Shown: positions 1-47,947 of the stretch, piece after piece
How positions within the stretch are numbered: the stretch's first letter is position 1
Layout of the letters: every line of letters begins with the position of its first letter
Assembly: GCA_002049455.2 (NCBI GenBank)
Contig: KV918828.1
Coordinates: 221,698 to 285,697 of the forward strand
Direction of reading: 5' to 3'
DNA length: 64,000 bases
Source of the DNA: Porphyra umbilicalis
Taxonomy: Eukaryota > Rhodophyta > Bangiophyceae > Bangiales > Bangiaceae
Notes under the pieces: model-generated
What the model saw: only the letters and a program-made list of their open reading frames with translations
Told to the model about the DNA's origin: nothing
Databases searched by the model: none
Translations under genes and position numbers: made by a program

Positions 1-125
1 GTGGTGGTGCCCTCCCGTCACACCTCCTCCCGGGCAGGGCCCACCACCAACAGCTGCGAGCGTGGTGGTGCCCTCCCGTCACACATCCTCTCGGGCAGGG
101 CCCACCACCAACAGCTGCGAGCGTG
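1..125. repeat. 61-bp hairpin minisatellite, copy 1 end
   Basis: About two units of a roughly 61-bp tandem repeat. Each unit contains CCCACCACCA and TGGTGGTGCCC as inverted arms around an ACAGCTG core, so each unit can fold. The same array, longer, opens copy 2 at 8998-9340. Confidence 0.8.
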
Positions 126-284
126 GTCGTGCCCCACTGTGTCCGACTGTGTGTGGGAAGGGCCGGTCTCTATCGAGTCTCGTGTCCGGCACGCGTCGTG
201 CTGACGACGCGACCGAGACACGGCGGCCGCGAACGCCGCCGCGTGGCGGCTTGCCACGCGATCGCCTCGCGTCATGCGCGCGCC

Positions 285-309
285 GCGGATCGTTTTAGGA
301 ACGATCCGC
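285..309. other. Perfect 10-bp stem-loop in the element leader
   Basis: GCGGATCGTT and AACGATCCGC are perfect inverted arms around a 5-nt loop. The hairpin is conserved in copy 2 near 9498-9522. Its role is unknown. Confidence 0.6.
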
Positions 310-1319
310 AGGCCCTGCTTATGACACCCCGACCAGGCTGTCTGAGTCCACCACTTCCCCCCACCGCGGCCGCGTCGTGCGCTGCTGGCCGTTCGCCCGT
401 CGGACATGAGCAGGCCGCGCTGGCGTGCCCCCCCGCAGGCGGCTCGCAGTCCCTAGTGACGGCTGACAGCCGACAGGTGGGCGCGACAGCACTGAGGGAC
501 CTGGGCCAAGATGCCTGGCTGCCGCTTCCGTATGGTCAGCAGTACAGCCACTTTTCATTGGTTGAGGGCGAACCACCATCAGCAGGACAATTTCTCCAGA
601 AATCGTGCCTCCAGCTGACTTCCATTTGATTGGCTCATGTCTGCGACCGTTGGAGCCCTCTCTCTGCGCCGTGCCCGTGACCCGTTTCTGGCGCCTTGCT
701 CTAGCTCGCACCTTTTTCTCGGTCTGTCAGCCTCGGCCTGGGGTTGTCAGCTCTTCGGGCGGGCTCGCACGCGGCAGCCGTCACGCCCCGCATCGTCGGC
801 CTCGTGCTGAGAAGCGTGGCGGCGGCTGCCGTCGAGGCCCAGCGCAGGCGTGTGGTGGCGGGGCTCGAGGCGACGCGTTTAGTCTTGGGCCCCGCGCGGG
901 CGCGGGCCACCCCTGGTGCGTGTCCCTGAGGGGGGGGTGTGGATGTGGCGGTGGCGTCGGTGGTGGGGCATACGCTCGCAGGGCGTGCCGTCGTGTTGGA
1001 AGCTTGCTTCGTGCCCCCCACGGTGTGCCGCCCAGCACCCGCCTCTCTTGCGCGGTATCGTCACACCCCCGCCAGCGCCATCGTCGCTGACGCGGCTGCC
1101 CGTCGTGCGCGCGCTTTTTTTGCGCGCCCTTTTTTTGCGGCGGCCGTGCCCTTGACAGCGGCCGGTGCACGGCGGGTTTGGGCTCGAGCTTGCGCGCGCT
1201 TTTTGACTTGCTTTGTGGGCCCCTTCTGGGGCGATACCCCCCCACCACCCCGTTCCGTCTCCCACGTCGGTTTGCCTCTCCCGGGCCCCCCCCCCTCCTT
1301 TCGTGGGCGGCTTCCGGGG

Positions 1320-1363
<44 letters not shown>

Positions 1364-1859
1364 GTGCGGCGGGTGCGGCCACGGCGGGGGCGGCTGCCGC
1401 GCCAGTGCGCGCTTGGCGGCCGCCTGCGCTGCCAGAGGGGGGCACGCGTTGACGCGCTTGGCGCGCGCGCGCTTTCCGTCCGCTTGCCGGTGGTGTGGTG
1501 CTGTGGGCGGCGGCCGCGCGCCGGTGGTGTGGACGGCTGCCGGCGGTGTGGCGGCCGCCGCGCGCTGGTTGTGTGGGCGGCGGCCGCTCGCCGGTGGTGT
1601 GTGCGGCTGCCGCCCGTCGGCGGTGTGGGCGGCGGCCGCGCGCTGGTTGTGTGGGCGGCTGCCGTCACCGGCTGCTGCGGCTGCCGGTCGGTGGTGTGGG
1701 CGGCTGCCGCCCATCGGCGGTGTGGGCGGCTGCCGCGCGCTGGTTGTGTGGGCGGCTGCCGCCCCCGGCTGCTGCGGCTGGCTGCCGCCCGTGGCTCGCG
1801 TGGCCGGTGGCCGCCCCCGGTGGTTGGTCCTCTCCTATTAAGGGGCGGCTGCCGACGCC

Positions 1860-4786
1860 ATGATGTGGGAGAAGAAGCCTCCCGACACCAAGCGGCGGAG
1901 GGCCAAGCGGAGGCGGCAGCGGTGGCGGAACGACGAAGATCGGCGGCTGCTTCGCGACTGGACCGACGCGGTCGCCCCGCACTTGGCGCACTGCCAGTGC
2001 GACTGCTGCTGCCCGCCCCCCCCACCGCGTCCAGTTCTGCAAGGTGGTCGTCTGCCACCAACCCGTCGACCACCTCCGCCGCCGTGGACGGGCGGCGCGC
2101 CACCACAAGAACGACGGCCGTGGACGCCGCCGCGGTGGACGGGCGGCGCGCCGCCCGACCGTCGTCATCCAAGCCCGCCGCGGTGGACGGGCGGCGCGCC
2201 GCCCGACCGTCGTCATCCAAGCCCGCCGCGGTGGACGGGCGGCACGCCGCCCGACCGTCGGCAGCCAAGCCCGCCGCGGTGGACGGGCGGCGCGCCGACC
2301 GACCGTCGTCAGCCAAGCCCGCCGCGGTGGACGAGCGGCGCGCCGACCGACCGTCGTCAGCCACGCCGGCCGCGGTGGACGGGCGGCGGGCCGCCCAACG
2401 GTCGGCAGCCAAGCCCGCAGAGGTGGACGGGCGGCGCGCCGCCCAACCGTCGGCAGCCGAGCCCACCGAGGTGGACGGGCGGCGCGCCGCCCAACGGTCG
2501 GCAGCCAAGCCCGCAGAGGTGGACGGGCGGCGCGCCGCCCAACCGTCGGCAGCCAAGCCCACCGAGGTGGACTGGCGGTGCGCCGCCCAACGGTCGGCAT
2601 CCAAGCCCGCCGAGGTGGACGGGCGGCGGGCCGCCCAACGGTCGGCAGCCAAGCCCGCGAAGGTGGACGGGCGGCGGGCCGCCCAACGGTCGGCAGCCAA
2701 GCCCACCAAGGTGGACGGGCGGCGCGACGCTCAACGAGCCGCCTCCAAGCCCGGGTCGGTGGACGGCGGGCGGCCCGTCGGTAGGCCAGCAACCAGGGCA
2801 GGAGCGACCGCTAAGCCCGCCCAGGTGGCCGGGGGACAACCCGCCGCCACCCGACGAGCGGCGGCCGAGCCCGAGGCCGCCGGGGCGAGAACACCAGTAG
2901 AGGCACCCTCTGTCACTGCGGTCGGGGCTGCGGCTGCCGCCACCCCCGCGCTGTCCCTCTTTGGCAAGCGGCCGCCCCGGCAGCAGTGGGCGCAACCTGC
3001 CGTCCGCAAGCGGCGCTTCGTCCTCATTCGCACCCCTGAGGATCGGGCGGCTGTTCATCGCACCTCGGTCGCCGCCGCCTCTGCGGCTGCGGTCGCCTCC
3101 GCCGAGGCGGCGGCTACTGCGACTGCAGCGGCAGCCGAGTCGGCGACCGCGTCGGCGAAGTACCGGGCGGCGGTCGCCGCCGCAGCGCGGGCCAAAGTTG
3201 AGGCCACCAACGCGAGTGTTGCTGCGACGAAGGCGGCGCAGGCTTCGAGCAGAGCGGCGGCGGCCTTGGCGTACGTACGAGGACGGTACTTGGCCGCCGC
3301 CAACCCTGGTGGTGCCGCCGCCGCCTCTGCCGCTGCCGCCGCTGCCGTCGGTCGGCCGGCCGCCGCCTCTGCCGCTGCCGCCGCTGCCGTCGGTCGGCCG
3401 GCCGCCGACTCTGTCGCTGCCGCCGCTGCCGTTGGTCGGCCGGCCGCCGACTCTGTCGCTGCCGCCGCTGCCGTTGGTCGGCCGGCCGCCGACTCTGTCG
3501 CTGCCGCCGGCGCATCCGGTCGGCCGGTGGCCGACTCTGTACCTGCCGACGGTGCTGTCGGTCGGCCGCCCGTCAAGCGCCGCACGGGTGGCCGTCCCCC
3601 CTGCCGCCAGCGACCCGTCGCCGTGCCGGCGCCGCGCCCTTTAGCGAGTATGGGGCGCGGACCAGCGTGGACGATGGCTGAGAACGATGCATTGATCAAG
3701 GCATGGCTTTATCGAGGCGAACAACCCAATCCATGGGGACCGACCAGTCAGGCAAGGACTTTTGGCGGCGGGCGCTGACGGGCTGGCTGCAGCTGCTCCG
3801 CGGAGAGCCGGGCGCCGCGGCGCGGGAGCAGCGGGGGTTTGACGCCATGAGGAAGCAGTGGGCCAAGATCGTGGCGGGCGTCATGGAGTTTTCCAGCTGC
3901 GTGGTGCAGCGCGCCTGTCCAAGCCGACGGGCATGCCCACACCCGACCTCATCAACTGTGCGGAGGGCTCTACTGCAGCAAGCAACATCTACAGTCGCAT
4001 CCGCGGCGACCACGAGGACGACGTCGCCAAGGGCAAGACCACTAAGCGGCGCAAGAAGCAAGTGTCGTGCCCCTGGGCACATTATTGGGAGCAGCTCAAG
4101 GATCAGGACCGTTTCAAGTCGGCGGCCGCTGCCTTTGCTTCAATCCAGAAGAAGGCCGCCGACAAGCAAGTGAAGTTGGCGGCAAGGGCGCGGCCGCCGC
4201 TGGTGTGGATGGCGGCGGCGACGCCGCGGAGCAGCAGGCTGCCGACGGCGACCCGGCACCGGCGGCCGCAGCGAAGGCGGCCGCCGGTAACAATGCTGGC
4301 GGCGCACCGGCGGCGGTCGACGTCATCGACAGTGACGACGAGCCGTGGGGGGACCGCCCTCTTGGTACCAAGGCGGCCAAGCGTGCCCGTGCCGAGAACA
4401 TTTTGGATGACCGCACGATCGGCCGCGTCGCAAGCGCTGTGGAGAAGCTTGGCGACGCGACGGAGCAGCGGACCATGATGATGGCATTCAGCCAGCCCTT
4501 CATGCGCGAGACGGCGATGGGGGCGGCGTACTGGGCGCATCAGACGCAGAAGATGATGGCCAAAGAGGGCATCAAGGTGTCTCGTGGCGAGCCGGCCGCC
4601 GCCGGGGGGGCGTCGGGCGACGCCGCCGACGGAACTGGTGGCGCGGCTCCCCCCCCGCTGGTGCGGCGGCCGGCGGGTCACCCGTTGACGACGTCTCGGC
4701 GTCTGGGGAAGCAGCGGTGTCCGAGGCGATTAAGGTCATCGCCGTCGACGGCGACGGCGACATCTTCCTGGTTCCATCAGGCAATA
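1860..4786 (+). pseudogene. Element ORF1, copy 1: repeat/Ala-rich protein with trihelix-like domain, frameshifted
   Basis: Starts at an ATG conserved with copy 2 (11206). It has a basic N-terminus (MMWEKKPPDTK...), 13 tandem 16-residue units (VDGRRAAQRSAAKP type), a long Ala-rich helical stretch, 14-residue VGRPAADSVAAAAA repeats (about 3347-3565), then a trihelix/NAM-associated-like domain beginning MGRGPAWTMAEN at 3650. In this copy the Ala-rich frame runs without a stop into the trihelix start, which suggests a fused protein. Compared with copy 2 the domain is broken by single-base insertions near 3708 and 3735 and by further frame changes near 3910 and 4187. At 4346 it keeps TGG where copy 2 has TGA. 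Between the basic N-terminus and the repeat a further frame change is needed near the C run at 2014-2025, so the true start is uncertain. Confidence 0.55.
2129..2752 (+). repeat. 48-bp coding minisatellite, 13 units (copy 1)
   Basis: Thirteen 48-bp units. Because 48 is divisible by 3, all three plus frames stay open and each encodes a different 16-residue repeat (VDGRRAAQ..., WTGGAPPN..., GRAARRPT...). Variation between units mostly separates early units (RPSSSKP) from later ones (QRSAAKP). Confidence 0.9.
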
Positions 4787-4787
4787 N

Positions 4788-7189: not shown

Positions 7190-8216
7190 GCTGCGCGATC
7201 GCGACGGTCTCACCGCGCGGCCATTTGACCAGCAGCCCAGTCGTGTCCCACATGATGCCTGGTCAAATGATGGGCCCCAACATGCCCAACCGAGCGCAGG
7301 GGACCGCGACGGCGGCATGAGCGGGCCGCCCAGTAGGCATGGGCAATCGATAAATTGATATCGGTAGATACCGATTATATCGGGCCAAACTTCGTAATCG
7401 ATTAGATATCGATTTTACCTCGTCAAAATGGGGTCAACCTATTGTGGAGTAGGTGTGTTGCACAACCTGCCGCGGCCAGTAGTTGTCAAGTCTCGAGCCA
7501 CAAATGTGTCACTCCGAGAGGAAGTCTGGCTTTTTCGATCGCACCTTGACACGAGCCTACCGATGACCTGTCTCGCCAGGTCTCGCACCAGCCTCGTCGT
7601 TGACGCTTTTCAGGGCAATGGCGCGTCTGACGCGTCCCCAGCTGTGCCCATGTCATCTCGGATGAGGATAAAGCGAAATGACCTCACGCTGCTGCCTTTA
7701 CGACTCGCCCCCGTGGAACCCCGCGCGGGCCACGACCATGGCAGGACAGTAGCGCAACCCCAAATTTGTACGAGGTTTGTCGGTCACGCACGCTACTCGT
7801 GCTGGGGCCGACCTTACCTTCACGTCGGTGCCTGCAGCGGTGGCGAGATCGTCTGCAGGACCTGTTCTGGTACCACACAAGACTTACGTTGTGCCCCGAC
7901 GGCGGAGCGCGGATGGGCACGGGTGCCTCATTTCATACAGAGGGCATTGCGCAAAAAAGCAATCCTTTGACAACCGCAAACGGGGAGGAACTCGCACATG
8001 AATATACACTTCTCCATAATTATGAGCAGATCGACATCAAATCGATAATCAGCTGTGACTGAAACAGACTCATTCGATTGAGGGGAGTCTTCCGATTTCC
8101 CATCCCTACAGCGCATTGGCGGCCACGCCACGCACCGTGGAAACTGGCGGCCACAGCGGACCGCAAGCAACCGGGGCGGTGCACCGCGCGGTCATTTGAC
8201 CAGCAGCCCCCATGAG
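7190..8216. repeat. Diverged unit(s) of the 249-bp dispersed repeat, split by a MITE
   Basis: 7212-7333 and 8117-8216 together match the tandem units at 21865-22970: CGCGCGGTCATTTGACCAGC, GGGCCCCAACATGCCCAACC, GACCGCGACGGC, GCGGGCCGCCCAG, then CGTGGAAACTGGCGGCCACA. The two halves join cleanly once 7334-8108 and one 8-bp flank are removed. Confidence 0.75.
7334..8108. mobile_element. 775-bp hAT-like non-autonomous element (MITE)
   Basis: The left end TAGGCATGGGCAATCGA and the reverse complement of the right end TAGGGATGGGAAATCGG match at 14 of 17 positions and resemble hAT termini. It sits exactly inside a known repeat unit, after CCGCCCAG (7326-7333). The 8 bp on the right, CAGCGCAT (8109-8116), match 5 of 8, as expected for an old 8-bp target duplication. 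Both ends are rich in ATCGAT/GATATCGAT words. No transposase is encoded. Confidence 0.7.
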
Positions 8217-8996
8217 AGCAAACCTAGCAATGTCAAAGGACTATCCTTAAAATCTCAATTGGGCTTGCGACGTGGCGCCCCCTCACGGGCCGCCTATTGT
8301 AGGGTCCTGAAATGGGCCATATGTGCAATAGAGTTACTCCGTACCGGGCTACTTTTCCATCGATAGTCCTCCGTGTTGGTGGGCGGTCCGTGGCCCAACC
8401 CCTTGGAGTAAACTTTCCGCGGAATCTCGGAGCCTCTGAGGTGGGGCGATCCGCAAGATCCGCTGCAGATTGCGGTCGACAGGCCAACGAAAGGCAGCGA
8501 TCGTTTGACACGATGCAGACACGAAGCACATGTATGACACAAAGTGAGAGATCGTCGTTAAAAACGTCGATTGAGCGCCACCTGGTGGCGCCACGGGCTG
8601 CCACGGCACACGGCGAAGGGATTCTTCCAGCCAATGGTACTCTCGCCAGAGAGAAATCGCTGAGAATCACAATGAAGAGTGAGACGTATTCTCCCGCGGC
8701 CCACACCACGGAGCATGGGAGCCGCACGTTGGCACGGATGTCTCAGATGATCGACCGACATTCGAGGGATCCGCCCCAGAACGAGTGTCGTGCGCCTCGA
8801 GATCGAGAAAAGGAGGCAGATCCAGGGCAACGAGTCTTGGCCTGAGATCCCTGTTTGTGGCTCTCTGTGATGCGGCGCTGCCGTACCAGATGTTGCATAC
8901 AGCTCGAGACTGAAAAATGACAAGCACCTGGGAGGACAGCTCAAAGTGGCGAGCGCAGAGGCGCGCCAAGACTTTTCGTGGCCGCCCGCCACACAT
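8217..8996. other. Nothing recognised
   Basis: Unique-looking sequence between the split repeat and the hairpin minisatellite of copy 2; no supported gene. Confidence 0.4.
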
Positions 8997-8997
8997 C

Positions 8998-9340
8998 GCC
9001 CGGGCAGGGCCCACCACCAACAGCTGGGAGCTTGGTGGTGCCCCCCCGCCACACCCCCTCCCCAGCAGGGCCCACCACCAACAGCTGGCAGCGTGGTGGT
9101 GCCCTCCCGTCACACCTCCTCCCGGGCAGGGCCCACCACCAACAGCTGCGAGCGTGTTCGTGCCCCCCTGCCACACCCCCTCCCGGCAGGGCCCACCACC
9201 AACAGCTGCGAGCGTGGTGGTGCCCTCCCGTCACACCTCCTCCCGGGCAGGGCCCACCACCAACAGCTGCGAGCGTGGTGGTGCCCTCCCGTCACACATC
9301 CTCCCGGGCAGGGCCCACCACCAACAGCTGCGAGCGTGGT
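8998..9340. repeat. 61-bp hairpin minisatellite, copy 2 (about six units)
   Basis: Tandem units containing CCCACCACCAACAGCTG followed by GAGCGTGGTGGTGCCC, with spacing of 58-61 bp. CACCACCA and TGGTGGTG form the arms of a potential hairpin in each unit. Confidence 0.85.
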
Positions 9341-11205
9341 CGTGCCCCACCGTGTCCGACTGTGTGTGGGAAGGGCCGGTCTCTATCGTGTCCCGTGTCC
9401 GGCACGCGTCGTGCTGACGACGCGACCGAGACACGGCGGCCGCGAACGCCACCGCGTGGCGGCTTGCCACGCGATCGCCTCGCGTCATGCGCGCGCCGCG
9501 GATCGTTTTAGGAACGATCCGCAGTCCCTGCTTATGACACCCCGACCAGGCTGTCTGAGTCCACCACTTCCCCCCACCGCGGCCGCGTCGTGCGCTGCTG
9601 GCCGTTCGCCCGTCGGACATGAGCAGGCCGGGCTGGCGTGCCCCCCCGCAGGCGGCTCGCAGTCCCTAGTGACGGCTGACAGCCGACAGGTGGGCGCGAC
9701 AGCACTGAGGGACCTGGGCCAAGATGCCTGGCTGCCGCTTCCGTATGGTCAGCAGTACAGCCACTTTTCATTGGTTGAGGCGAACCACCATCAGCAGGAC
9801 AATCTCTCCAGAAATCGTGCCTCCAGCTGACTTCCATTTGATTGGCTCATGTCTGCGACCGTTGGAGCCCTCTCTCTGCGCCGTGCCCGTGACCCGTTTC
9901 TGGCGCCTTGCTCTAGCTCGCACCTTCCACTAGTTATCCGCGTCGGCCGCAGCTCTTTGGCCCCAAACAATAAGAGGTGGAGTGTATCGCTTTTTCGGTG
10001 GTGGGGGCGAGTCCACGCACATTTTCTCGGTCTGCCGGCCTCGGCCTGGGGTTGTCAGCTCTTCGGGCGGGCTCGCGCGCGGCAGCCGTCACGTCCCGCA
10101 TCGTCGGCGTCGTGCTGAGAAGCGTGGCGGCGGCTGCCGTCGAGGCCCAGCGCAGGCGTGTGGTGGCGGGGCTCGAGGCGACGCGTTTTGTCTTGGGCCC
10201 CGCGCGGGCGCGGGCCACCCCTGGTGCGTGTCCCTGAAGGGGGGGTGTGGATGTGGCGGTGGCGTCGGTGGTGGGGCATACGCTCGCAGGGCGTGCCGTC
10301 GTGTTGGAAGCTTGCTTCGTGCCCCCCACGGCGTGCCGCCCAGCACCCGCCTCTCTTGCGCGGTATCGTCACACCCCCGCCAGCGCCATCGTCGCTGACG
10401 CGGCTGACCGTCGTGCGCGCGCTTTTTTTGCGCGCCCTTTTTTTGCGGCGGCCGTGCCCTCGACAGCGGCCGGTGCACGGCGGGTTTGGGCTCGAGCTTG
10501 CGCGCGCTTTTTGACTTGCGTTGGGGGCCCCTTCTGGGGCGATACCCCCCCACCACCCCGTTCCGTCTCCCACGTCGGTTTGCCTCTCCCGGGCCCCCCC
10601 CCCCTCCTTTCGTGGGCGGCTTCCGGGGGGCGGCGGCGGCGGCGGCAGCGGCGGCGGGTGCGGCGGGTGCGGCCGCGGCGGGGGCGGCTGCCGCGCCAGT
10701 GCGCACTTTGCGGCCGCCTGCGCTGCCAGAGGGGGGCACGCGTTGACGCGCTTGGCGCGCGCGCGCTTTCCGACCGCTTGCCGGTGGTGTGGTGCTGTGG
10801 GCGGCGGCCGCGCGCCGGTGGTGTGGACGGCTGCCGCCCGTCGGCGGTGTGGGCGGCCGCCGCGCGCTGGTTGTGTGGGCGGCGGCCACTCGCCGGTGGT
10901 GTGTGCGGCTGCCGCCCGTCGGCGGTGTGGGCGGCGGCCGCGCGCTGGTTGTGTGGGCGGCTGCCGTCACCGGCTGCTGCGGCTGCCGGTCGGTGGTGTG
11001 GGCGGCTGCCGCCCATCGGCGGTGTGCTTGCGGTCGGTGGTGTGGGCGGCTGCCGCCCATCGGCGGTGTGGGCGGCTGCCGCGCGCTGGTTGTGTGGGCG
11101 GCTGCCGTCCCCGGCTGCTGCGGCTGGCTGCCGCCCGTGGCTCGCGTGGCCGGTGGCCGCCCCCGGTGGTTGGTCCTCTCCTATTAAGGGGCGGCTGCCG
11201 ACGCC

Positions 11206-12722
11206 ATGATTTGGGAGAAGAAGCCTCCCGACACCAAGCGGCGGAGGGCCCAGCGGAGGCGGCAGCGGTGGCGGAACGACGAAGATCGGCGGCTGCTTCG
11301 CGACTGGACCGACGCGGTCGCCCTGCACTTGGCGCACTGCCAGTGCGACTGCTGCTGCCCGCCCCCCCCCCCGCGTCCAGTTCTGCAAGGTGGTCGTCTG
11401 CCACCAACCCGTCGACCACCTCCGCTGCCGTGGACGGGCGGCGCGCCACCACAAGAACGACGGCCGTGGACGCCGCCGCGGTGGATGGGCGGCGCGCCGC
11501 CCGACCGTCGTCATCCAAGCCCGCCGCGGTGGACGGGCGGCACGCCGCCCGACCGTCGGCAGCCAAGCCCGCCGCGGTGGACGGGCGGCGCGCCGACCGA
11601 CCGTCGTCAGCCAAGCCCGCCGCGGTGGACGAGCGGCGCGCCGCCCAACGGTCGGCGGCCAAGCCCGCAGAGGTGGACGGGCGGCGCGTCGCCCAACCGT
11701 CGGCAGCCGAGCCCACCGAGGTGGACGGGCGGCGGGCCGCCCAACGGTCGGCAGCCAAGCCCGCAGAGGTGGACGGGCGGCGCGGCGCCCAACCGTCGGC
11801 AGCCGAGCCCACCGAGGTGGACGGGCGGTGCGCCGCCCAACGGTCGGCAGCCAAGCCCGCCGAGGTGGACGGGCGGCGGGCCGCCCAACGGTCGGCAGCC
11901 AAGTCCACCAAGGTGGACGGGCGGCGCGACGCTCAACGAGCCGCCTCCAAGCCCGGGTCTGTGAACGGCGGGCGGCCCGTCGGTAGGCCAGCAACCAGGG
12001 CAGGAGCGACCGCTAAGCCCGCCCATGTGGCCGGGGGACAACCCGCGGCCACCCGACGAGCGGCGGCCGAGCCCGAGGCCGCCGGGGCGAGAACTCCAGT
12101 AGAGGCTTCCTCGGTCACTGCGGTCGGGGCTGCGGCTGCCGCCACCCCCGCGCTGTCCCTCTTTGGCAAGCGGCCGCCCCGGCAGCAGTGGGCGCAACCT
12201 GCCGTCCGCAAGCGGCGCTTCGTCCCCATTCGCACCCCTGAGGATCGGGCGGCTGTTCATCGCACCTCGGTCGCCGCCGCTTCTGCGGCTGCGGTCGCCT
12301 CCGCCGTGGCGGCGGCTACTGCGACCGCAGCGGCAGCCGAGTCGGCGACCGCGTCGGCGAAGTACCTTGCGGCGGTCGCCGCCGCAGCGCGGTCCAAATT
12401 TGAGGCTACCAACGCGAGTGTTGCTGCAACGAAGGCGGCGCAGGCTTCGAGCAGAGCGGCGGCGGCCTTGGCGTACGTGCAAGGACGGTACTTGGCCGCC
12501 GCCGACTCCATTGGTGCCGCCGCCGCCTCTACCGCTGCCGCCGCTGCCGTCGGACGGCCGGCCGCCGACTCTGTCGCTGCTGCCGGCGCGTCCAGTCGGC
12601 CGGTGGCAGACTCTGTCCCTGCCAACGGTGCTGTCAGTCGGCCACCCGTCCAGCGCCGCACGAGTGGCCGACCCCCCCTGCCGCCAGCGACCCGTCGTCG
12701 TGCCGGCGGCCGCGCCCTTTAG
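11206..12722 (+). pseudogene. Element ORF1, copy 2: N-terminal basic, 16-residue repeat and Ala-rich part
   Basis: ATG at 11206 (MIWEKKPPDTKRRRAQRRR...) is conserved with copy 1; the segment RWRNDEDRRLLRDWTDAV looks like the start of a Myb/SANT-like helix. Ten 16-residue repeats follow, then KRPPRQQWAQPAVRKRRF and alanine-rich helices with regularly spaced charges. The basic start and the Ala-rich part are in different frames (a change is needed near the C run at 11362-11372), and the Ala-rich frame stops at 12720-12722, six bases before the trihelix ATG. Copy 1 reads through this junction. It may be one gene with small indels or two overlapping ORFs. Confidence 0.45.
11475..11954 (+). repeat. 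48-bp coding minisatellite, 10 units (copy 2)
   Basis: Ten units of the same 48-bp repeat that has 13 units in copy 1, so the unit number has changed since duplication. All three plus frames are open. Confidence 0.9.
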
Positions 12723-12727
12723 GCAGC

Positions 12728-15067
12728 ATGGGGCGCGGACCAGCGTGGACAATGGCGGAGAACAATGCAATAATCAAGGCGTTGCTTATTGAGGCGAGCA
12801 ACCCAATCCGTAGGACCGACCAGTCGGGCAAGGACTTTTGGCGCCGGGTTCTGACGGGCTGGCTGCAGCTGCTCCGCGGAAAGCCGGGCGGCGCGGCGCG
12901 GGAGCAGCGGGGGTTTGACGCGATGAGGAAGCAGTGGGCCAAGATCGTGGCCGGCGTGATGGAGTTCTCCAGCTGCGTTGTGCAGGCGCGTCTCTCGAAG
13001 CCGACGAGCATTGCGACCCACGCCGACCTAGTCAACTGTGCGGAGGGGCTCTACTGCAGCAGCAACATCTACAGCCGCATCCGCGGCGACCACGAGGACG
13101 ATGTCGCCAAGGGCAAGACCACCAAGCGCCGCAAGAAGCAGGTGTCGTGCCCTTGGGCGCATTGTTGGAAGCAGCTCAAGGACCAAGACCGTTTCAAGTC
13201 GGCGGCCGCTGCCTTTGCCTCCATGCAGAAGAAGGCCGCCGACAAGCAATTGAAAGCGGCGGCAAGGGCGGCGGCCGCCGCTGGTGTCCATGGCGGCGGC
13301 GACGCCGCGGAGCAACAGGCTGTCGACGGCGACCCGGCACCGGCGGCAGCAGCGAATGCGGCCGCCGGTAACAATGCTGGTGGCGCACCGTCGGCGGTCG
13401 ACGTCATCGACAGTGACGACGAGCCGTGAGGGGACCGCCCCCTTGGTACCAAGGCGGCCAAGCGTGCCCGCGCCGAGACCATTGCGGATAACCGAACGAT
13501 CGGCCGCGTCGCCAGCGCGGTGGAGAAGCTTGGCGACGCGACGGAGCAGCGGACGATGATGATGGTATTCAGCCAGCCCTTCATGCGCGAGACGGCGATG
13601 GGGGCGGCGTACTGGGCGCATCAGACCAAGAAGATGATGGCCAAGGAGGGCATCAAGGTGCCTCGTGGCGAGCCGGCCGCCGCCGGGGGGGTGTCGGGCG
13701 ACGCCGCCGACGAGGCTGGTGGTGCGGCTCCGCCCCCCGCCGGTGCGGCGGCCAGCGGGTCACCCGTTGACGACGTCTCGGCCTTGGGGGAAGCAGCCGT
13801 GCCCGAGTCGATCAAGGCCATCCCCGTCGACGGCGACGGCGACGTCTTCCTGGTGCCCTCAGGCAACACGCATCCCGCCAAGTAGTCAGGTGCCGCGCCG
13901 GTGGCCGCGGATGGGGCGTCCCCAGCGTCGGCGGCCGCCGAAGGTACTTCTACAGCGTCGGCGGCCGCCGAAGGTGCATCTTCATCCCCTGCATCGGTGG
14001 CTGCCGGCTCTGCCTCCGCCGCGCGCGCATTGTCGGCGGCTGCCGCTAGATCAACATCGGCACCGGCGGCGGCGAGCTCGCCACCAGGGGGCGGCCGTGC
14101 TGCTCCCACTTCGGGCAGGACGCAAGCGTCTAAGACGCCCACCGCTTCTTTTGCCGTTGCGGCTGCCGCTGCTTCATCGGCGGCTGCCGAAGCGGCGTCA
14201 TCGGTGCAGGCGGCCGCTCGAGGAGCGGCGTCCGCTACTGCTACTGCTCCGCCGACGCGGCCGTTGACGACGGCCGCGGCCGTATCGCGGGCTCGGCTCG
14301 CGGCTACTCGCGCGGTGCAGGCGGCCGCTCGAGGAGCGGTGGCCGCTACTGCACCGCCGTCGCGGCCGTTGACGACGGCCGCGGCCGTATCGCGTGCTCG
14401 ACCTGCGTCTACTCGCGCGGCTGCGTCTCGTGCTCGGCCACCGGCGGCGGCGGCCGCCCGTAGTGCATCTCAGGGTCTGCCGCGGGCGGCCGCCGCTCCT
14501 GCGTCGCCGGCTCTTAGCCCAGGCGCTGCTTCGTCCTCTACGGCGGCCGCCGCTATGCCGCCGAGGCCGGCTGCGGGTGCTGAGCTGCTCACATTGGCGG
14601 CGGCCGCCAACAAGACTTTGCCGACACCTCCGGTGGCCGCGAGGCAAGCGGCTTTGACTCTGCGCGGCCGCCGGGCGATGGCGACCAAGCTGAAGAACGC
14701 GACCGCCGCCTTGGCGTCCCCGCTGCCGACGACCATCGATATGACCAAGCCCTCACCAGAAGCGGCCGCGGCTGCTGCCACGCCGTCCATGTCACTCGTG
14801 TCCGCGGCGGCGGCCGCAATGTCTGTACCAGCGGCTGCCGCCGCCTCTACGTCCGGGCCCGCGGCGACCGCTCCCCCCCCTGAGCGTCCACAGCAGCGCC
14901 GCAAGCGGCCGCCGCCGTCGGTGTCGTCGTTCGACGAGTCGACGTCCGACGGCGGCGGCTTTGACGGCTTTGACTCCGACATTATTGCCAAGTTCGCGCG
15001 CTACGGCGGCCGCTCCTCGTCCGAGTCGAGTAACTCGGACGGGAGCGACTCGGAAGAGGGTGCCTGA
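12728..15067 (+). pseudogene. Element ORF1, copy 2: trihelix/NAM-associated-like DNA-binding protein with two in-frame stops
   Basis: ATG at 12728. The first 170 residues match the layout of NAM-associated/trihelix-like partner proteins of plant PIF/Pong elements: WTMAEN, then NPIRRTDQSGKDFW, MRKQWAKI, CAEGLYC and CPWAHCWKQLKDQDRF. The frame stays open to 15067 apart from TGA at 13427 (TGG in copy 1) and TAG at 13883. After the first stop come KAAKRAR (NLS-like), a helix with RTMMMVFSQPFMRETAM and HQTKKMMAKEG. After the second is a roughly 390-residue Ala-rich tail with a 37-residue duplication (about 14209-14425), ending in an acidic serine tail SSSESSNSDGSDSEEGA. Inferred role: DNA-binding partner that brings transposase to the element ends. 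Confident about the fold similarity, less about expression. Confidence 0.6.
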
Positions 15068-15699
15068 GTTACCAATGCCTGTTGCGTCTCGTCTTGTTCG
15101 TGCTCTCGTCTTTTCTCTTTTTCTTGGCCCGCAGATGCTCTTTGTGTGTCGCTCGCGGTTCATCTTTGTACGGGATTTTTTTGTTTGCGTTGTGCTTCTG
15201 TGTATGTGTCGCGCATTTTGTCTGTGCGGGAGTGTCGTGGTCGGTGTAGTGCTGCAGGGTGTGTACTCATAGCTGTAGATGGTTTTTTTTTTTCCCCGTT
15301 GGGCAGGGGTTTTTTTTTTCCTATCACCGTCGTACTCGCGAAATAGCCTGGGTGCGGGACGGGCGCGTGGCACGACGGGCGCGTGGCACGACCAGCTCTG
15401 GCACGGCGGCTTGCCATGCGCGCACGCTGAGGGGCGGCTGACAACTTGGCGAGAGACAGTGCTGCTCGTGCCACAGGCCGCGCGGGCCCCCAAATCGGCC
15501 TCTCGTGCCACAGGGGAGGGTGCAGCCGCAGTCGCCGGGGGGGGGGCTGTCACTGGTGTGCCCGTCGGGCTCTTTCGGTCGTCACCGCGGCTAATCTTAA
15601 TACGTATTAATGGGTATACACTCTTTTCGTGATCGATCTGTCAGCAGTCTCGGCGACTGTCACCATCCAGCCAATCCAGCCTATCAAGGCTGCAAAGGC
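15068..15699. other. Spacer after ORF1; nothing coding
   Basis: Pyrimidine-rich DNA with two T tracts (about 15282-15293 and 15311-15320) and a perfect 14-bp palindrome TTAATACGTATTAA at 15597-15610. No gene supported. Confidence 0.5.
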
Positions 15700-16640
15700 G
15701 CCCGCGGGTCTGTCGACAGCGCACATTGCGAGCGCTGGCAGCCGCGGCCACTACGAGGCCGCCCACCGGCGGCCGCGCGGCAACCGCGCGCGTGCCTCCC
15801 GGGGGTGGGGGGGAGGGATGCGGCGGACCAGTGCCCACGTGCCTCCGGGCCCGCCGCTCGCGCAGCCTGCTGAGTGGCGCGGCCCGCACCAGCGCGGTCG
15901 CTGGTGTGGCGGGGGGGATCCGCCCAGTACATTTGCGCTGTGTGTGCCGCGCCTGCCTGCGCGCAAACTGCGAGAGCTCTCGGCCGCCGCTATAGCGAGG
16001 CCGCCCACCGGCAGCCGACTGCTGACAGCCTGCGTGCCTGTGTGAAGGGGGGGGGCATGCGCCGGAGCTTAGGCCGCGCGCGTCCACGCGTGCCACCCGC
16101 GCCGACAGCTGAGTGGCTCGGTGCGCACGACGATGCGTTCGTCGGGGGGAGGGATGGGACCTGTGTTTGCGCCTTACGTCCGGCGGCCACCAGAGCCCAG
16201 TGCGAGCGCTGGCGGCCGCAGCGATCGCGAGACCGCCAACCGCCGGCCGATAACAGACCGCGTGTGTGCGCCCGCGGGGAGAGGGGGTGGGGATGTGGCG
16301 GACCTTTGGCCGCGTGCGCGCACCGCCCTCGCGGCCAGCTGGGTGGCGCGGCGTGGACGGCGATGTGGTGAATTAATTGGGGGGGAGGACATGTGCCTCG
16401 ACTTTGCGCTGTGTGTGCAGCGGCTACCAGCGCCCACTGCGAGGGCTGGCGGCCGCCGCTTTCGCGACGCCTCCCACCGGCAGCCGCACGGCGATGAGAT
16501 GACTGGTGTGGTGGGGCGGGACGGGTTCCGTTCTGGCGACGCGGTGGCGAGAGAGGGGGGGGGGGACGGGCCCGGCCTTGCCGCGGTGCCTGGGGTTTGG
16601 AAAGGGGACGGGGCCTTTACGACATAAGCGGCAATCCGCC
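15700..16640. repeat. 237-bp tandem repeat, four diverged units
   Basis: The word GCGAG(C/A/G)GCT(G/C) plus GGC-GCCGC-GCGA(G/C) CC-CCCACCGGC recurs at 15728, 15970, 16202 and 16439 (spacing 242, 232, 237). Each unit also holds a G-rich run and a CGCTGTGTGTGC-like segment. Confidence 0.75.
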
Positions 16641-16659
16641 ATGCCTCACAGCCTCAACA

Positions 16660-18500
16660 AGCGCGGCAACCGTCGTTTTGTGCTGCAGCAACACGCAGCA
16701 GCAACACGTGCGGCGGCCGCCGCTGAGCGACAACACGTGCGGCGGTCGCCCCGCCGCGCCCGTTTACACGGCGGCCGCAGCGGAACAACAAGACGCGCGG
16801 CGGCCGCCGTGCAACCACACCAAGGGCGACCGCCGTAGCGCATCAACAACTGTGGCGGCCGCCGCGCCGGACCACGTGCGGCGGCGGCCGCGAAGTGACA
16901 ACAACGGCGGCGGCCGCCGCACAGCAGCAACAAGTGTGGCGGCCGTCGCGCTGTTCCACGACAACACGTGCAGTGGCCGCCGCTGAGCAACAACACGTGC
17001 GGCGGTCGCCGCGCCGCGCCCGTTTACACGGCGGCCGCAGCGCAACAACAAGACGCGCAGTGCATCGACAAGTGTGGCGGCCGCCGAGCCAGACCACGTG
17101 CGGCGGCGGCCGCGCCATGACGACGGGGTCGGCGGCCGCCGATGCGCTCCAGCAACACGTTCGGCGGGGGCCGCTGAGCGACAACACGTGCGGCGGCCGC
17201 CCCGCAGCGCCCATTTACACGGCGGCCGCAGCGATAACCAAGTCGCGCGGCGGCCGCCGTGCAACCACACCAAGGGCGACCGCCGTAGCGCATCAACAAC
17301 TGTGGCGGTCGCCGCGTCGGACCACGTGCGGCGGCGGCCGCGAAGTAACAACAACGGCGGCGGCCGACGCAGAGCAGCAACAAGTGTGCCGGCCGTCGCG
17401 CTGTTCCACGACATCAAGTGCGGCGGCCGCCGCTGAGCGACAACACGTGCGGCGGTCGCCCCGCCGCGCCCATTCACGCGGTGGCTGCAGCGGAACCACA
17501 AGACGCGCGGCGGCCGCCGTGCAACCACACAAAGGGCGACCGCCGTAGTGCATCAACAATATGGCGGCCGCCGCGCCGGACCACGTGCGGCGGCGGCCGC
17601 GCCGTGGCGACGGGGTCGGTGGCCGCCGATGCGTTGCAGCAACACGTGTGGTGGCCGCCACTGAGCAACAACACGTGCGGCGGTCGCCCCGCCGCGCCCG
17701 TTTACACGGCGGCCGCAGCGGAACAACAAGACGCGCGGCGGCCGCCGTGCAACCACACAAAGGGCGACCGCCGCAGCGCAACAACAATATGGCGGCCGCC
17801 GCGCCGGACCACGTGCGGCGGCGGCCGTGCCGTGGCCACGGGGTCGGCGGCCGCCGATGCGCTGCAGAAACACGTGCAGTGGCCGCCGCTGAGCAAAAAC
17901 ACGTGCGGCGGTCGCCCCGCCGCGCCCGTTTACACGGCGGCCGCAGCGGAACAACAAAACGCGCGGCGGCCGCCGTGCAACCACACAAAGGGCGACCGCC
18001 GCAGTGCATCAACAAGTATGGCGGCCGCCGCGCCGGACCACGTGCGGCGGCGGCCGCGAAGTGACAACAACGGCGGCGGCCGACGCACAGCAGCAACAAG
18101 TGTGGCGGCCGTCGCGCTGTTGCACGACATCACGTGCGGCAACCGCCGCTCAGCAACAGCACGTGCGGCGATCGCCGCGCCGCGCCCTTTGACACGGCGG
18201 CCGCAGCGCAACAACAAGACGCGCGGCGGCCGCCGTGCAATCACACCAGTAGCTGGTGCCACCCGGCACCCCGCCAGGACATAACAGCAGGTGCGGCATC
18301 CGCCTCTCAACAATACCAAGGGCGGCGGCCGCAGCGCAGCGACAAGTGTGGTGGCCGCCGTGCAAAGTGACGTTCGACGGCGGCCGCTGCGGGTGCCGTG
18401 TAGCACAAGCGTCTTCGGCGGTCGGCCGCTCGTGCGGCCGCCGTCGTGCAAGCGCGACAAGGGCGGCGGCTGCCGCCGCCCAACCCTGTGCTGCCGCCAT
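16660..18500. repeat. GCGGCCGC/CACGTG-rich satellite, seven units of 190-260 bp
   Basis: CTGAGCRACAACACGTGCGG or a variant recurs near 16724, 16981, 17172, 17431, 17660, 17888 and 18148. Each unit is itself built from roughly 30-bp pieces ending in CGGCGGCCGCCG-type palindromes, with ACACGTGCGGCGG motifs between. Units also share CCGTTTACACGGCGGCCGCA and GTGCAACCACAC(C/A)AAGGGCG. ORFs across it are repeat artefacts. Confidence 0.85.
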
Positions 18501-18682
18501 CGCAAATAAAATATGAAAGGAAAAGGGGAAGATCACACCATCGCACCTGTTGAATCACCGTTTCCCGAACGTAGCGTAAGAAACAAAACCACTGAATAGA
18601 GAACATGGTGCACATCGTACCAGATCACAAAAAGATGGCGACAAAGAATCAGATGACGCAAAAAAAGGAAAGACACCAAGGC

Positions 18683-20383
18683 TCAATCAACATACGGCTC
18701 CAGCAGCTCATCTCGCTGCGCAAAAACATGCGCACACAGGTCATCGCGAAGCGCCTTGTGCTCTGCGACGGACTTTGCCTCGCCGGTGGCCATGAGGATG
18801 CGCATAAACTCGCTGATTGGCGCCACTGGAGCGCCCACGACATGAGGGGGCGGGACGCCGGGGGTCTGCTCTGGATCCCGTAGCGCACCCGCAGCAACCC
18901 CAACGGCCCCCGTATTGCCAGCGCCCCCCGCTTCAGCGCCGCCACCGGCAGTGCCCGCACCTGCGTCGGCGCCGCCGGCCCCAGCCCCAGCCGCCGCTCC
19001 AGGGCCGGCACCGGCGGCGCCCGCGCCCGCGTCGGCGGCGCCCGCCCCACCAGCGCCCGCCGCTCCACCACCGCCACCGGCGGCGCCCGTGCCCGCGTCG
19101 GCGCCGCCCGCCCCAACAGCGCCCGCCGCTCCACCACCGCCACCGGCGGCGCCCGTGCCCGCGTCGGCGCCGCCCGCCCCACCAGCGCTCGCCGCTCCAC
19201 CACCGCCACCGGCGGCGCCCGCGCCCGCGGCGCCGCCCGCATCAGCGGTGCCGCCCTCCCCGTCCGCCCCATCCGCCTCCGCCGCTCCGGCGGCCACCGT
19301 CCCGACAGTCTCGCCGCCACCCCCCCCGTACACCGACGAGCGCGACCGCGACACAAACCCGTCGCGGCGGGTCTCGACAACCATGTTATGCAAAATTGCA
19401 ACGGTTTGCGTGGTCAGCACCATTCGAGGTACCGACCAGTACCGGCACGGGTGCAGCATAATGTGGAAGCGTGCCGTCAGGATCCCAAAGAGGCGCTCCA
19501 CGTCCTTGCGTAGCTCCTCTTGCAGGCGGTTGAAAGTCCGTTGCTCTCGAGTTTGGGGGTTCGGATAAGGGGCGACGAAAAACGCGAAGCGGAGAGAAAT
19601 GCCGTCCACTAGGTAATATAGCAAGGTGCGAGTATTGCCATTCACAGTGAACGGACAGTCACGCGGGGGCCATTTGCCGGTGATCACATCCATATACAAC
19701 GGAGATTGGTACAGGACGTTAATATCATTCAGGCTCCCGGGACACCCAGAAAAAATGTGGTATATCCAAGTGTCCTCGTCACAGATAGCCTCAATCACAA
19801 TGGACCGCTGGCCATCGCGGCCCTGGTAGGTGCCCGCACGCCCCTTGGGGCAAGCGGACCACTGCCAGTGAGAACAGTCAAGCGACCCGAGACACCCTGG
19901 AAACCCACGCTCAGCGTTGCGGGCGAGGAGGTTACCGATTTCCGCCGTGGTGGGCGGTCGCAGGTACCGGGGGCTGAACTCGTCCACGATGAACTCTGTG
20001 AAGAGCGTCACCGCCCGAGATATCGTTGAACTGGAAAGCCGCACGTACTCGTCCGCGCGATCGCACGACTCCCCATACCCGAGCACCCGGAACGCTGCAA
20101 CCAGCTTTTTCAGAGGATGCGCTTGCGGCCGCCCTGTCGCGTTCACGCTCTGTACCCAAAACGGGCGGTCCTTAATAGCGTGGTAGATGCGCAGGAAAAC
20201 CGGCATAGGCATGCGAAAACGACGCTCAAACTCCCGCAGGCCGTAAACTGGGGGAAGGCCATCCACGCCGAAGTAGTCCCGCAGAATACTGTGCAGACCA
20301 AGCTCGAAATTGCGGGGCCTGTTGGCCGCTCGGCCGGGCGTGGAGCCGCGGTATCGCGGGCGCTGCACACGTCGCGCCGCCAT
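18683..20383 (-). CDS. PIF/Harbinger transposase (HARBI1/DDE_Tnp_4-like nuclease)
   Basis: 566 residues from ATG at 20383, intact and intronless. N-terminal helical region, then the DDE core: GSLDCSHWQW (D169), PGSLNDINVL (D220, conserved in plant-type PIF proteins), FTVNGNTRTLLYYLVDGIS (D260) and RKDVERLFGIL (E296). D260 and E296 are separated by 35 residues, a DD35E spacing. ARFHIMLHPCRYWS and AILHNMVVE are further family signatures. After about residue 345 comes a roughly 220-residue Gly/Ala-rich tail with 22-residue repeats (GGADAGTGAAGGGGG type), unusual for the family, ending in a normal-looking segment (EFMRILMATGEAKSVAEHKA...). It would cut and move the element with ORF1 as partner. 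It could still be active, since no stop or catalytic change is seen. Confidence 0.9.
   Translation of the reverse strand: MAARRVQRPRYRGSTPGRAANRPRNFELGLHSILRDYFGVDGLPPVYGLREFERRFRMPMPVFLRIYHAIKDRPFWVQSVNATGRPQAHPLKKLVAAFRVLGYGESCDRADEYVRLSSSTISRAVTLFTEFIVDEFSPRYLRPPTTAEIGNLLARNAERGFPGCLGSLDCSHWQWSACPKGRAGTYQGRDGQRSIVIEAICDEDTWIYHIFSGCPGSLNDINVLYQSPLYMDVITGKWPPRDCPFTVNGNTRTLLYYLVDGISLRFAFFVAPYPNPQTREQRTFNRLQEELRKDVERLFGILTARFHIMLHPCRYWSVPRMVLTTQTVAILHNMVVETRRDGFVSRSRSSVYGGGGGETVGTVAAGAAEADGADGEGGTADAGGAAGAGAAGGGGGAASAGGAGGADAGTGAAGGGGGAAGAVGAGGADAGTGAAGGGGGAAGAGGAGAADAGAGAAGAGPGAAAGAGAGGADAGAGTAGGGAEAGGAGNTGAVGVAAGALRDPEQTPGVPPPHVVGAPVAPISEFMRILMATGEAKSVAEHKALRDDLCAHVFAQRDELLEPYVD
18950..19235 (-). 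repeat. 66-bp repeat inside the transposase tail
   Basis: About 3.5 units; CGGCGCCCGTGCCCGCG recurs at 19081 and 19147, with a close copy about 66 bp earlier. The unit encodes 22 residues in frame, so expansion lengthens the Gly/Ala tail without breaking the ORF. Confidence 0.85.
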
Positions 20384-20569
20384 AGCGCGACGGCGCCACT
20401 CCAGGAGCGTAGCAACATGCGCTGCGACGACGGCTGATGTCGCCGCGTCGTCGTTGCCACCCTTCTCCCCCTCTCATCCGCCCAGTGACATGAAACCACC
20501 CCCCATGGAACCGCCGTCCATGGCGCTGGAGTCCTGTGCTTGCGCGCATGATGCGAACAGGGCGGCGGG

Positions 20570-20765
20570 AGCACGGCGGTTGCGAGCACGGCGGTCGTGA
20601 GCACGGCGGTCGCGAGCACGGCGGTCGTGAGCACGGCGGTCGCGAGCACGGCGGTCGCGAGCACGGCGGTCGCGAGCACGGCCGTCGCGAGCACGGCGGT
20701 CGCGAGCACGGCGGTCGCGAGCACGGCGGTCGCGAGCACGGCGGTCGCGAGCACGGCGGTCACCG
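20570..20765. repeat. 15-bp minisatellite upstream of the transposase
   Basis: About 13 units of GAGCACGGCGGTCGC (variants GTCGT, GGTTGC, GGCCGTC), starting roughly 190 bp upstream of the transposase ATG. Subterminal arrays of this kind can be transposase or partner binding sites; that role is inference. Confidence 0.85.
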
Positions 20766-20770
20766 TGGTC

Positions 20771-21864
20771 GCGAGCGCGGTGCTCCTCCGTGTCGCTGGC
20801 GGACGGAGCGCGACGGGTGCAGCCGCGGATTGAGCAGTCGGTCCCCCCACCCCCAGAATGCCATCGGGCCTGGGCAGCATATCGTTGCTGCCCCCACCCC
20901 TCCCAGAGTATCGGCGGGTCCATACAGGACATCGGACATGCCGCTACCCCGCGCATCATACCAACGGGGAGGAAGTTTGACGCATGCTCCCCTGTTCAAC
21001 AGAACGGTCCCTGCTGGACCACACAATCCACAATCAAGTACGTATCAGAGGCTGTCACAATAGGAGGACAGTTGACCAACACACCTTTACCGGAAAGTTG
21101 ACCGATAGTCACGAAGCACCATGTCCTGCCACACACTGTGGATTCGACTCCCGCGGTCGTTTTTTCGCCATTCCGAGGACAACGTATCGTGTTTAGTGCA
21201 AGGTCCTTGACACTTCGTCACCTTGGGTACTCGATTTGCGGTCAGCTGAGTGCGCCATCACCGCGACCAACACGAGACCGTGTCAACGTGACAGGCCCGC
21301 GTGTGCTCCACTTTCCCCGATGTTGAACGGCTCGTTTCGTTCAGGTGTCATGTGTCCGGCCCATGGAGTCAAGGTACTGGTGTGTCCCTTCGTCCGGCGT
21401 CCGTGTCTCGCTCATACGTTCCGACGCCTCCAGCCAGCTGTGTCTGTCTGGGAGCGCCCAACGTTCGGTCAAACGTTCGGTCACATGTCAGATACAGCCC
21501 TGTCTGTAGCGTGCGATCGTTTGCCGGTCGTCGTTTCAGGTGATCCGAGGCCGTGGGACACGTGGTGGATCCATCTCATTTGACGATCAGCCAATGAGAG
21601 GGCGTCCAGGATAGTCCTCGTGTCCTGAATAGGGGTGCCGTGCCGTATTTCGCCTTCGAATAGAACATGCACCCTCTATTCTGCAACCCGGACTATTGGA
21701 CCGAGAAGGAGTTATGTAAATTGTCGGGGGTGGTTCGAGGTGATTCGACGTTGTTTGGGGCACGGTTACATTGACAAGAGGGTGGTTCGTGGACCAATAA
21801 CCGAATATAGACACGTTGCACCAATAAAACAGACACGTTTCGTTAGTCCATCATTGCTAGGTTT
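20771..21864. other. No gene recognised
   Basis: Composition falls toward neutral. Only short ORFs occur, without domains. No terminal repeat matching the left side of the Harbinger-like element was found here. Confidence 0.4.
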
Positions 21865-22970
21865 GCTCTGAGCGAGGGGACAATGCACTGGGCTGGTCAA
21901 ATTTGCGGTTCTCGCTGATCGCTGACGGCCGGTATTGCTGATCCCCCAATTTGGTCCTCATCGGCCAACACCGGGACTGCTTTGTAAAACAGGCCAACCA
22001 TTGGTCTAGAACAGGATCAAACAGCTGCTGAGTGCGTATCTTCGACGCGCCATTGGCTCTCCAACCGCCAGGTCCGTGCAGAATCGAGATTCTCCGTTTT
22101 CTTGAGAAATTCTTCCTTTCTCAGTCGTCTCATGTGGTAAAGTAGCCGAGAGCAGTGAGTTATCGAGATTTTCTTCAGGTTTCTGAGATAATCTCAGAAA
22201 ACCAAGTGCGCCGATTGTGCGTTTGCGGGCCGTACGGGCACATTCTGTACAGATGGGACTCGACATGCACTGCTGTCACTCCTCTTGGCCAATCACAAAC
22301 GTCCCTGCATTGCTTTTGCACTCCCGTTCTCTGGCGATGAGGCCAAAATTGGGGGATCTGCAATACCACTGTATTCGTGGTCAAATCAGGGGCCCCAGCA
22401 CGCCCAACCGAATGCAGCGAACCGCGACGGCCGCACAAGCGGGCCGCCCAGTGGCAGGCCCGTCACGAACCGTGGAAACTGGCGGCCACAGCGAACCCCA
22501 AGTGACCGGGGCGGAGCACCGCGCGGTCATTTGACCAGCAGCCCCCACGAGCGGGGGGCTAATGCACAGGGCTGGTCAAATTTGCGGTCCTTGCTCATCG
22601 CTGACGGCCGGTACCACTGTATGCGTGGTCAAATCAGGGGCCCCAGCACGCCCAACCGAATGCAGCGGACCGCGACGGCCGCACAAGCGGGCCGCCCAGT
22701 GGCTGGCCCGTCACGAACCGTGGAAACTGGCGGCCACAGCTGACCCCAAGCGACCGGGGCGGTGCACCGCGCGGTCATTTGACCAGCAGCCCCCACGAGC
22801 GGGGGGGCCAATGCACAGGGCTGGTCAAATTTGCGGTCCTTGCTCATCTCTGACGGCCGGTACCACTGTATGCGTGGTCAAATCAGGGGCCACAGCATGC
22901 CCAACCGAATGCAGCGGACCGCGACGGCCGCACAAGCGGGCCGCCCAGTGGCTGCCCTGTCACGAACCGT
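21865..22970. repeat. 249-bp tandem repeat, three units with inverted internal ends
   Basis: Units begin at GGGCTGGTCAAAT (21890, 22569, 22818) and end at ATTTGACCAGCAGCCC (22544, 22792); the third is truncated near 22970. Unit length is 224 bp plus a 24-25-bp spacer (GAGCGGGG-type ending AATGCACA). Unit ends are inverted repeats of one another, so the unit looks like a MITE that became tandem. Unit 1 is interrupted by the element at 21935-22363. Confidence 0.8.
21935..22363. mobile_element. 429-bp TA-flanked MITE (mariner-like)
   Basis: Inverted ends of about 33 bp: left TTGCTGATCCCCCAATTTGG, right (reverse complement) TTGCAGATCCCCCAATTTTG, continuing through CCTCATCG. It is flanked by TA on both sides (21933-21934, 22364-22365). 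The uninterrupted sister units read CCGGTACCACTG exactly where this unit has the insertion, so the target duplication is TA. No ORF of note inside. Confidence 0.8.
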
Positions 22971-23690
22971 GGACACAGGCTGGTGTGAAACTGTTGTCGC
23001 CAGGCCATCAACGTGAACCTGGCGTGTCGTTGCCCGGCTGTCAGAGTTCATTCACTCGGCGTTCTTTGTTGCGCTTGCAATAGATCTCTGGCTGGGACGT
23101 GCGCACCTGAGGAAAGAATACAGGTCGTGTCAACCGCCCATCTTTCCATGCGTGCGTGCTCTGCGAGCTTTACGTGGTTACTTCTTTGTCAAACTAGTTT
23201 TTTACTGGTCCGCTACCTGCCTGGTCGTCTTCACTCATAGGATGCGGATTGGCTCTCATCATTTTTGTAAGGCTTCTGGGTCTCTCCGGTTTCGTCGGCA
23301 GGGCAGTTCGTGACCGACGTGTTCTTCGTCACATGTTCTGGCCTGACCCTCACCGCAATCGTGATCAGGCCACAAGATGAGTCGTCGGGGAAAGGCCCTC
23401 TGGCACGTCCTGGACTGTGCTTTGAAGTCCTGGAATGATGACCCCAACGTGCCAAGAGATTGCAGGGTTTCCTTTATGGTACTGGTCACAATGGCCAAAA
23501 TCGCCTGTGTGCACCCTCACCTGTATGATGACTTTCAAAGATTGAGCGCGTCTCTATGAAATATGATGAGTGCTGCGTCAGTGTGACAGTGCTTTCGTTC
23601 GTTTTGTGCATGCTGCAGTGCATTATTGTCGTTCCGCCAAAAAAGAGGTGAGTCTAGGAGTAGCAAAGAGGCGCTTTTCTGCGTTTGATT
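22971..23690. other. No confident gene
   Basis: A 60-codon plus ORF with ATG at 23377 and an overlapping minus frame ending DETGETQKPYKNDESQSASYE (23231-23455) are both weakly protein-like. Neither has a recognisable domain. Confidence 0.3.

Positions 23691-47915: not shown

Positions 47916-47947
<32 letters not shown>

Follow-up and report, generated by a model that had tools for sequence, protein, structure and literature searches.

The window, a stretch of 64,000 nucleotides from Porphyra umbilicalis (C68:221698-285697), contains a complete element of 13,653 bp which, judged from its sequence, is a genuine and unusually large piece of mobile DNA of the PIF/Harbinger kind. Very probably it is a large cut-and-paste PIF/Harbinger transposon. 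The set searched for other copies is the 83.8-Mb genome in 665 contigs, and copies are named here by contig. This genome has twelve phycobilisome-linker matches, one of them with a phycoerythrin beta gene next to it, which suggests a red alga; in the PDB that gene matches best an entry labelled as a bacterial fluorescent protein, followed by entries for R-phycoerythrin or phycoerythrin. The limits of the element, in window coordinates, are as follows.

8216..21868, no strand: complete element, 13,653 bp, defined by alignment limits common to other copies and by a paralogous empty site
8213..8215, no strand: left target-site duplication, TGA, with an identical triplet at 21869-21871
8216..8232, plus strand: left terminal inverted repeat, GAGCAAACCTAGCAATG, 17 bp, with an exact inverted match at 21852-21868
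21852..21868, minus strand: right terminal inverted repeat, read from the end sequence
21869..21871, no strand: right target-site duplication, TGA, read from the end sequence

The 17-bp inverted repeat is short and starts with G; PIF/Harbinger terminal repeats usually begin with A or G (PMC4482050, available text). GAGCAAACCTAGCAATG has 83 exact copies in the genome, against none for the reversed control, and 203 copies when up to two mismatches are allowed, against eight for the control. TNA precedes 79 of the 83 exact ends, and its middle base is G, T or A in 20 ends each and C in 19. The large copies with both ends read are those of the window, C215, C19, C290, C217, C8, C128, C49, C52, C14, C10 and C65, and matching TNA duplications flank ten of these twelve. 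The duplications of C10 and C65 do not match: in C10 the first base of the left end is changed and the right end may belong to something else, while the right end of C65 has three mismatches. Four of four smaller copies (C5, C26, C441 and C467) have matching duplications. Adjacent end pairs number 22, two of which (C193 and C99) are left out as not being single elements; triplets match in 19 of the other 20, C43 being the exception. For many of the exact ends there is no second exact end close by. These 3-bp duplications fit the TWA or TNA of PIF/Harbinger elements. They are TNA and not the ANT of the Pangu group, and the NuwaII pattern C-TNA-G, read by eye, is present in only two of six copies with matching duplications.

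A paralogous empty site is located on C265, where the sequence is CGA in place of the TGA found on both sides of the window element. The joined flanks of the element align with this site over 379 bases across the junction, 316 to its left and 63 to its right, at 95.8% identity and with no gap, followed by another aligned piece (217 bases, 97.7%). Since the alignment crosses the junction without a gap, the 13.65 kb were inserted as one unit. The initial annotation had proposed a search for common ends; the ends did prove to carry terminal inverted repeats and to be flanked by 3-bp target duplications, an empty site was found as well, and the copies have evidently inserted repeatedly as complete units.

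When six other large copies are aligned to the window, the left limit falls at 8210-8217 in all six and the right limit at 21869-21881 in five, the alignment of C10 ending at 21766. The span first proposed, 8997..20770, is therefore too short; it falls short of the left limit by 781 bp and of the right limit by 1,098 bp. The accompanying claim of a PIF/Harbinger element of unusual size was right, even understated, nearly 12 kb having been given for what is 13,653 bp. End to end, the other copies measure 14,644 bp (C215), 13,937 bp (C19), 14,549 bp (C290), 13,750 bp (C217) and 12,258 bp (C8); lengths computed from end positions are 13,223 bp (C128), 13,729 bp (C49) and 14,192 bp (C52). The right flank of the window element carries an unrelated 248-bp array. 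The tRNA and Rfam scans of the window gave no matches, a Pfam test of one stretch at 28001 gave none, and the NCBIfam scan gave only a weak IS5-type match (0.0023), far below the cut-off.

A second subfamily, whose copies are 71-75% alike to those of the window family, has its own end sequence, GAGCAAAGCCACCAATG, of which there are 22 exact TNA-flanked ends against none of the control. Eight of the 22 ends form four pairs, 12.5-15.1 kb long, and the triplets match in all four. The lengths are 15,131 bp (C38), 13,847 bp (C55), 12,476 bp (C113) and 14,419 bp (C428), the last three computed from end positions; the ends of C38 and C428 were also read in sequence. Short derivatives are present as well. 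Thirteen end pairs lie less than 6 kb apart, all with matching triplets, and six of them measure 1,122-1,124 bp; in the one derivative whose whole sequence was read, about 400 bp of one end and about 360 bp of the other remain. A 24-kb end pair on C78 was considered as a giant derivative and rejected, since its ends belong to a short derivative into which about 23 kb have been inserted.

In another reading, the element would have had the usual PIF/Harbinger length at first and would have grown through nested insertions of other elements, as is seen in the longest elements of Medicago. The insert in the C78 derivative points in this direction, as do the C14 copy, which reaches 22,067 bp with its matching parts spread out, and the right sides of C38 and C428, which differ by unmatched sequence. 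However, alignments to six other copies cover from 93.7% (C8) to 100% (C215) of the window element, so that the window copy does not owe its size to an insert of its own, and the second subfamily, for all its divergence, keeps the same gene layout at its full length. An old insert common to both subfamilies is the form in which this explanation survives, and overall it is improbable.

The genes and arrays inside the element are listed below.

8975..9353, no strand: 61-bp array, about 6 copies (tandem-repeat finder; about 10 copies in C290)
11473..11937, no strand: 48-bp array, 9.7 copies (tandem-repeat finder)
12728..13429, plus strand: start of ORF1, the partner gene (weakly NAM-like in homologues), with a stop after 233 codons here
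13520..15067, plus strand: downstream remainder of the same ORF1 frame, as two listed ORFs (13520-13885 and 13901-15067)
15068..18682, no strand: tail-to-tail spacer with 18 GGCGGCCGCC palindromes (motif count)
16702..18178, no strand: 29-bp array with a 228-bp higher-order unit (tandem-repeat finder)
18683..20383, minus strand: DD35E transposase, 566 codons from the first Met (Pfam matches and DDE triad)
18919..19237, minus strand: 66-bp array, encoding a 22-residue Gly/Ala-rich repeat in the transposase tail (tandem-repeat finder)
20553..20761, no strand: 15-bp array, upstream of the first Met of the transposase (tandem-repeat finder)

Tandem arrays are found in all eight copies that were run through the tandem-repeat finder, and the number of repeats varies from copy to copy. 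In five other analysed copies of the window subfamily, the 48-bp array has from 8.7 (C217) to 16.7 (C215) repeats; C38 has an array with a period of 96 that extends over 2.8 kb. Of the minisatellites first described on the outer sides of the genes, the 15-bp array is the one at 20553-20761. The spacer had been described as mostly two tandem families; the arrays are real, but they make up about 1.48 of its 3.6 kb and not most of it. It is very improbable that the elements inserted into ordinary satellite DNA of the genome and that the repeats belong to it, even though the right flank of the window element does hold its unrelated 248-bp array. The arrays of the element sit between the inverted repeats, and 15 of the 16 contigs that match the part with the 61-bp array also match ORF1 or the transposase (C122 is the exception), among the matches listed in a search that skips very common words and could therefore miss satellites.

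At 29 loci the ORF1 and transposase genes are arranged tail to tail, always in the same order, which provides the second ORF within the element that is usual for PIF/Harbinger, and the proposed partner ORF facing the transposase across about 3.6 kb is confirmed. This count comes from 40 ORF1 and 38 transposase places, taken one per locus by hand among the best 40 candidates scored, and genes were paired when on the same strand within 15 kb. Thirty pairs were found; the thirtieth joins the transposase of the window to the partial copy at the window's left edge and is not real, so 29 are kept. The initial annotation would have been contradicted by genes occurring apart with their own ends; what is found is one end pair enclosing both. 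That ORF1 and the transposase belong to separate, smaller transposons which came to be adjacent by chance with satellite between them can hardly be credited: within 15 kb the partner is absent at 10 of the 40 ORF1 and 9 of the 38 transposase places (best candidates scored), but order, orientation and spacing are kept at the 29 loci, one inverted-repeat pair and one duplication surround both genes, and the C265 site without the whole unit argues strongly against it.

The transposase has 35 residues between the second D and the E of its DDE triad and matches Plant_tran (9.5e-59) and DDE_Tnp_4 (1.8e-13), in keeping with a PIF/Harbinger transposase; the DD35E Harbinger assignment made from the window alone was thus borne out. 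Transposases of this type are numerous in the genome: at least 150 Plant_tran matches were scored among 624 first-look candidates. In other copies the transposase frame has an open N-terminal extension, while the window copy has an in-frame stop upstream. Counted from its first Met, ORF1 runs for 592-905 codons in six other aligned copies, which were picked for their long frame. The window, C215 and C10 copies were left out of this set: the frame is broken in the first two, and C10 has no long frame bearing the marker motif. The ORF1 frame of about 3.9 kb originally reported was not found: the domain frame stops after 233 codons in the window, and a 733-codon frame ahead of it uses another reading frame. 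Since ORF1 is interrupted and the transposase extension is closed, the window copy, if it moves, probably needs proteins from other copies. The ORF1 of PIF/Harbinger elements is a DNA-binding protein of the Myb/SANT or NAM-associated type. In Pfam, ORF1 of the window has no NAM or Myb match, and its counterparts in C38 (1.1e-4, 23.5 bits against a cut-off of 27.7) and C55 (0.071) match the NAM-associated family PF14303 below the curated cut-off. A profile of the ORF1 domain compared with solved structures gave no convincing homologue, with one match at E 0.58.

In comparisons with the distant copies C55 or C38, dN/dS is 0.27-0.37 for ORF1 and 0.12-0.35 for the transposase, whose repetitive tail aligns badly and adds noise to the ratio. 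Closer copies compared among themselves give 0.30 to 1.12, a range to be expected if many of them are in decay or too much alike. By these ratios, both genes are under purifying selection between the subfamilies.

The spacer between the two genes has a distinctive composition. Its repeat unit is 228, 257, 330, 488, 308 or 140 bp in different copies, and GGCGGCCGCC occurs in it 11-40 times in each of eight elements, against 0.1-0.2 from a first-order spacer model; as the motif was chosen after viewing the arrays and array copies are not independent, these counts are a lead and not a test. Outside the spacer, the same elements have 7-16 copies, which in C55 exceeds the spacer count, over a longer stretch. 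The flanks of five copies contain 7 in 70,862 bases, and the window to the right of the element contains 14 in 42,132 bases. Since the repeat units have turned over while GGCGGCCGCC stays dense, the spacer may have a function. It may serve as a binding array for a protein of the element itself, or it may stop transcription coming from either gene. This whole reading, in which the spacer is a maintained functional part and the large size would be selected and not a by-product of array growth, is tentative and rather unlikely.

At the left edge of the window lies part of a further copy.

1..4786, plus strand: left part of another copy, with its left end at C68:219706, before the window, and a single N at 4787

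Its flank matches the flank of the complete copy at C52:24247-38438 in two long pieces (97.6% and 95.3%), its interior matches that copy at 99.0% up to about the single N, and the triplet beside its end is the triplet beside the C52 end. The sequence past the N is not that of the element, and its best match elsewhere is on C50 (86%). This left half was rejected as independent evidence, since the complete C52 copy has the same insertion flank. It is either the C52 insertion seen twice in the assembly or a segmental duplication of it, a second haplotype and a misjoin being among the possible origins, and as evidence of mobility, the use first made of it, it is weak for that reason.

The cut-and-paste transposon that these observations favour has short inverted ends and inserts at TNA with duplication of the triplet; its copies of 12-15 kb carry two conserved tail-to-tail genes inside one end pair, and short derivatives keep the ends. 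By analogy with rice Ping/Pong and zebrafish Harbinger3 (PMC2836001, available text), the ORF1 protein would bind the ends and recruit the transposase, which would cut and join them. The tandem arrays, internal and varying in copy number between copies, account for part of the extra length.

Rice Ping/Pong and zebrafish Harbinger3 are compact elements and are not known to carry large internal arrays. Both ORF1 and the transposase are needed in the rice Ping/Pong and mPing and the zebrafish Harbinger3 systems, and both are present here; short derivatives are a further common feature, those of the known systems being mobilised in trans (PMC2836001, available text). The Ectocarpus Harbinger families, as far as the available text describes them, have two tail-to-tail genes as in the present family and fall into two groups with ANT or TNA duplications, the latter as in the present family, but the giant transposons named there are KDZ, EnSpm and Sola-1, not Harbinger (PMC12477816). 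In Medicago truncatula, the available text gives 22 complete MtPH elements of 2,180 to 25,288 bp (PMC2213677). These resemble the present family in being PIF/Harbinger elements that can reach great length, and MtPH A6-4 has a variable 60-bp tandem repeat of 2 to 35 copies, but nested insertions are present in the longest, and the core elements listed in the table measure 3.2-6.0 kb (PMC2213677). The PIF/Harbinger elements of the PHIS survey also have a DDE transposase, two ORFs, short terminal inverted repeats and a 3-bp duplication, but its candidate autonomous elements have a mean consensus length of about 4,124 bp, against 12.3-15.1 kb here (PMC4482050, available text). The main text of a giant-transposon review mentions neither Harbinger nor PIF (PMC6431247), and among the titles listed by a literature search with little coverage of subscription journals, none concerned a giant PIF/Harbinger family in red algae.

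PIF/Harbinger elements with genes placed tail to tail, with TNA targets or with tandem repeats inside them are all known already. What is new is the size of 12-15 kb in two subfamilies with genes under selection, together with the palindrome-rich spacer. At about three times the published mean length (PMC4482050, available text), this family in its two subfamilies is well suited to the question of whether repeat arrays inside DNA transposons have a function or are neutral.

Four other copies of the PIF/Harbinger element, on contigs C8, C128, C49 and C52 (C52:24247-38438) of the same assembly, have a left part that is 91-97% similar to the window element, whereas their ORF1 region is only 86-88% similar. 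Because of this difference between the two regions, these copies may be recombinants between subfamilies. Among the 624 first-look candidates from the whole genome, 150 Plant_tran transposase matches were scored, with a stop marked in nine of them (counted by hand from the listing).

A single N at window 4787 is the point at which the left copy (window 1-4786) ends abruptly, and is likely an assembly join; the sequence past it is 86% similar to contig C50. Three other features lie in the window:

22364-22980, tandem array of a 248-bp repeat, 2.5 copies, in the right flank of the element
44623-49053, minus strand, open frame of 1,477 codons with a HEAT-repeat match (1.1e-6)
61154-64000, minus strand, open frame that matches SNF2-related, RING and helicase C-terminal domains

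Judging from its domain matches, the last frame is probably a host SNF2-RING gene.

At C78:215104-239231, on a further contig, a short derivative of the family, retaining both element ends, is interrupted by another insert of about 23.0 kb. The two ends of this insert, the only parts of it that were read, form inverted ends of its own, GTGCTTTGCTGAG, with an apparent ATA duplication, and the insert may itself be a giant DNA transposon.
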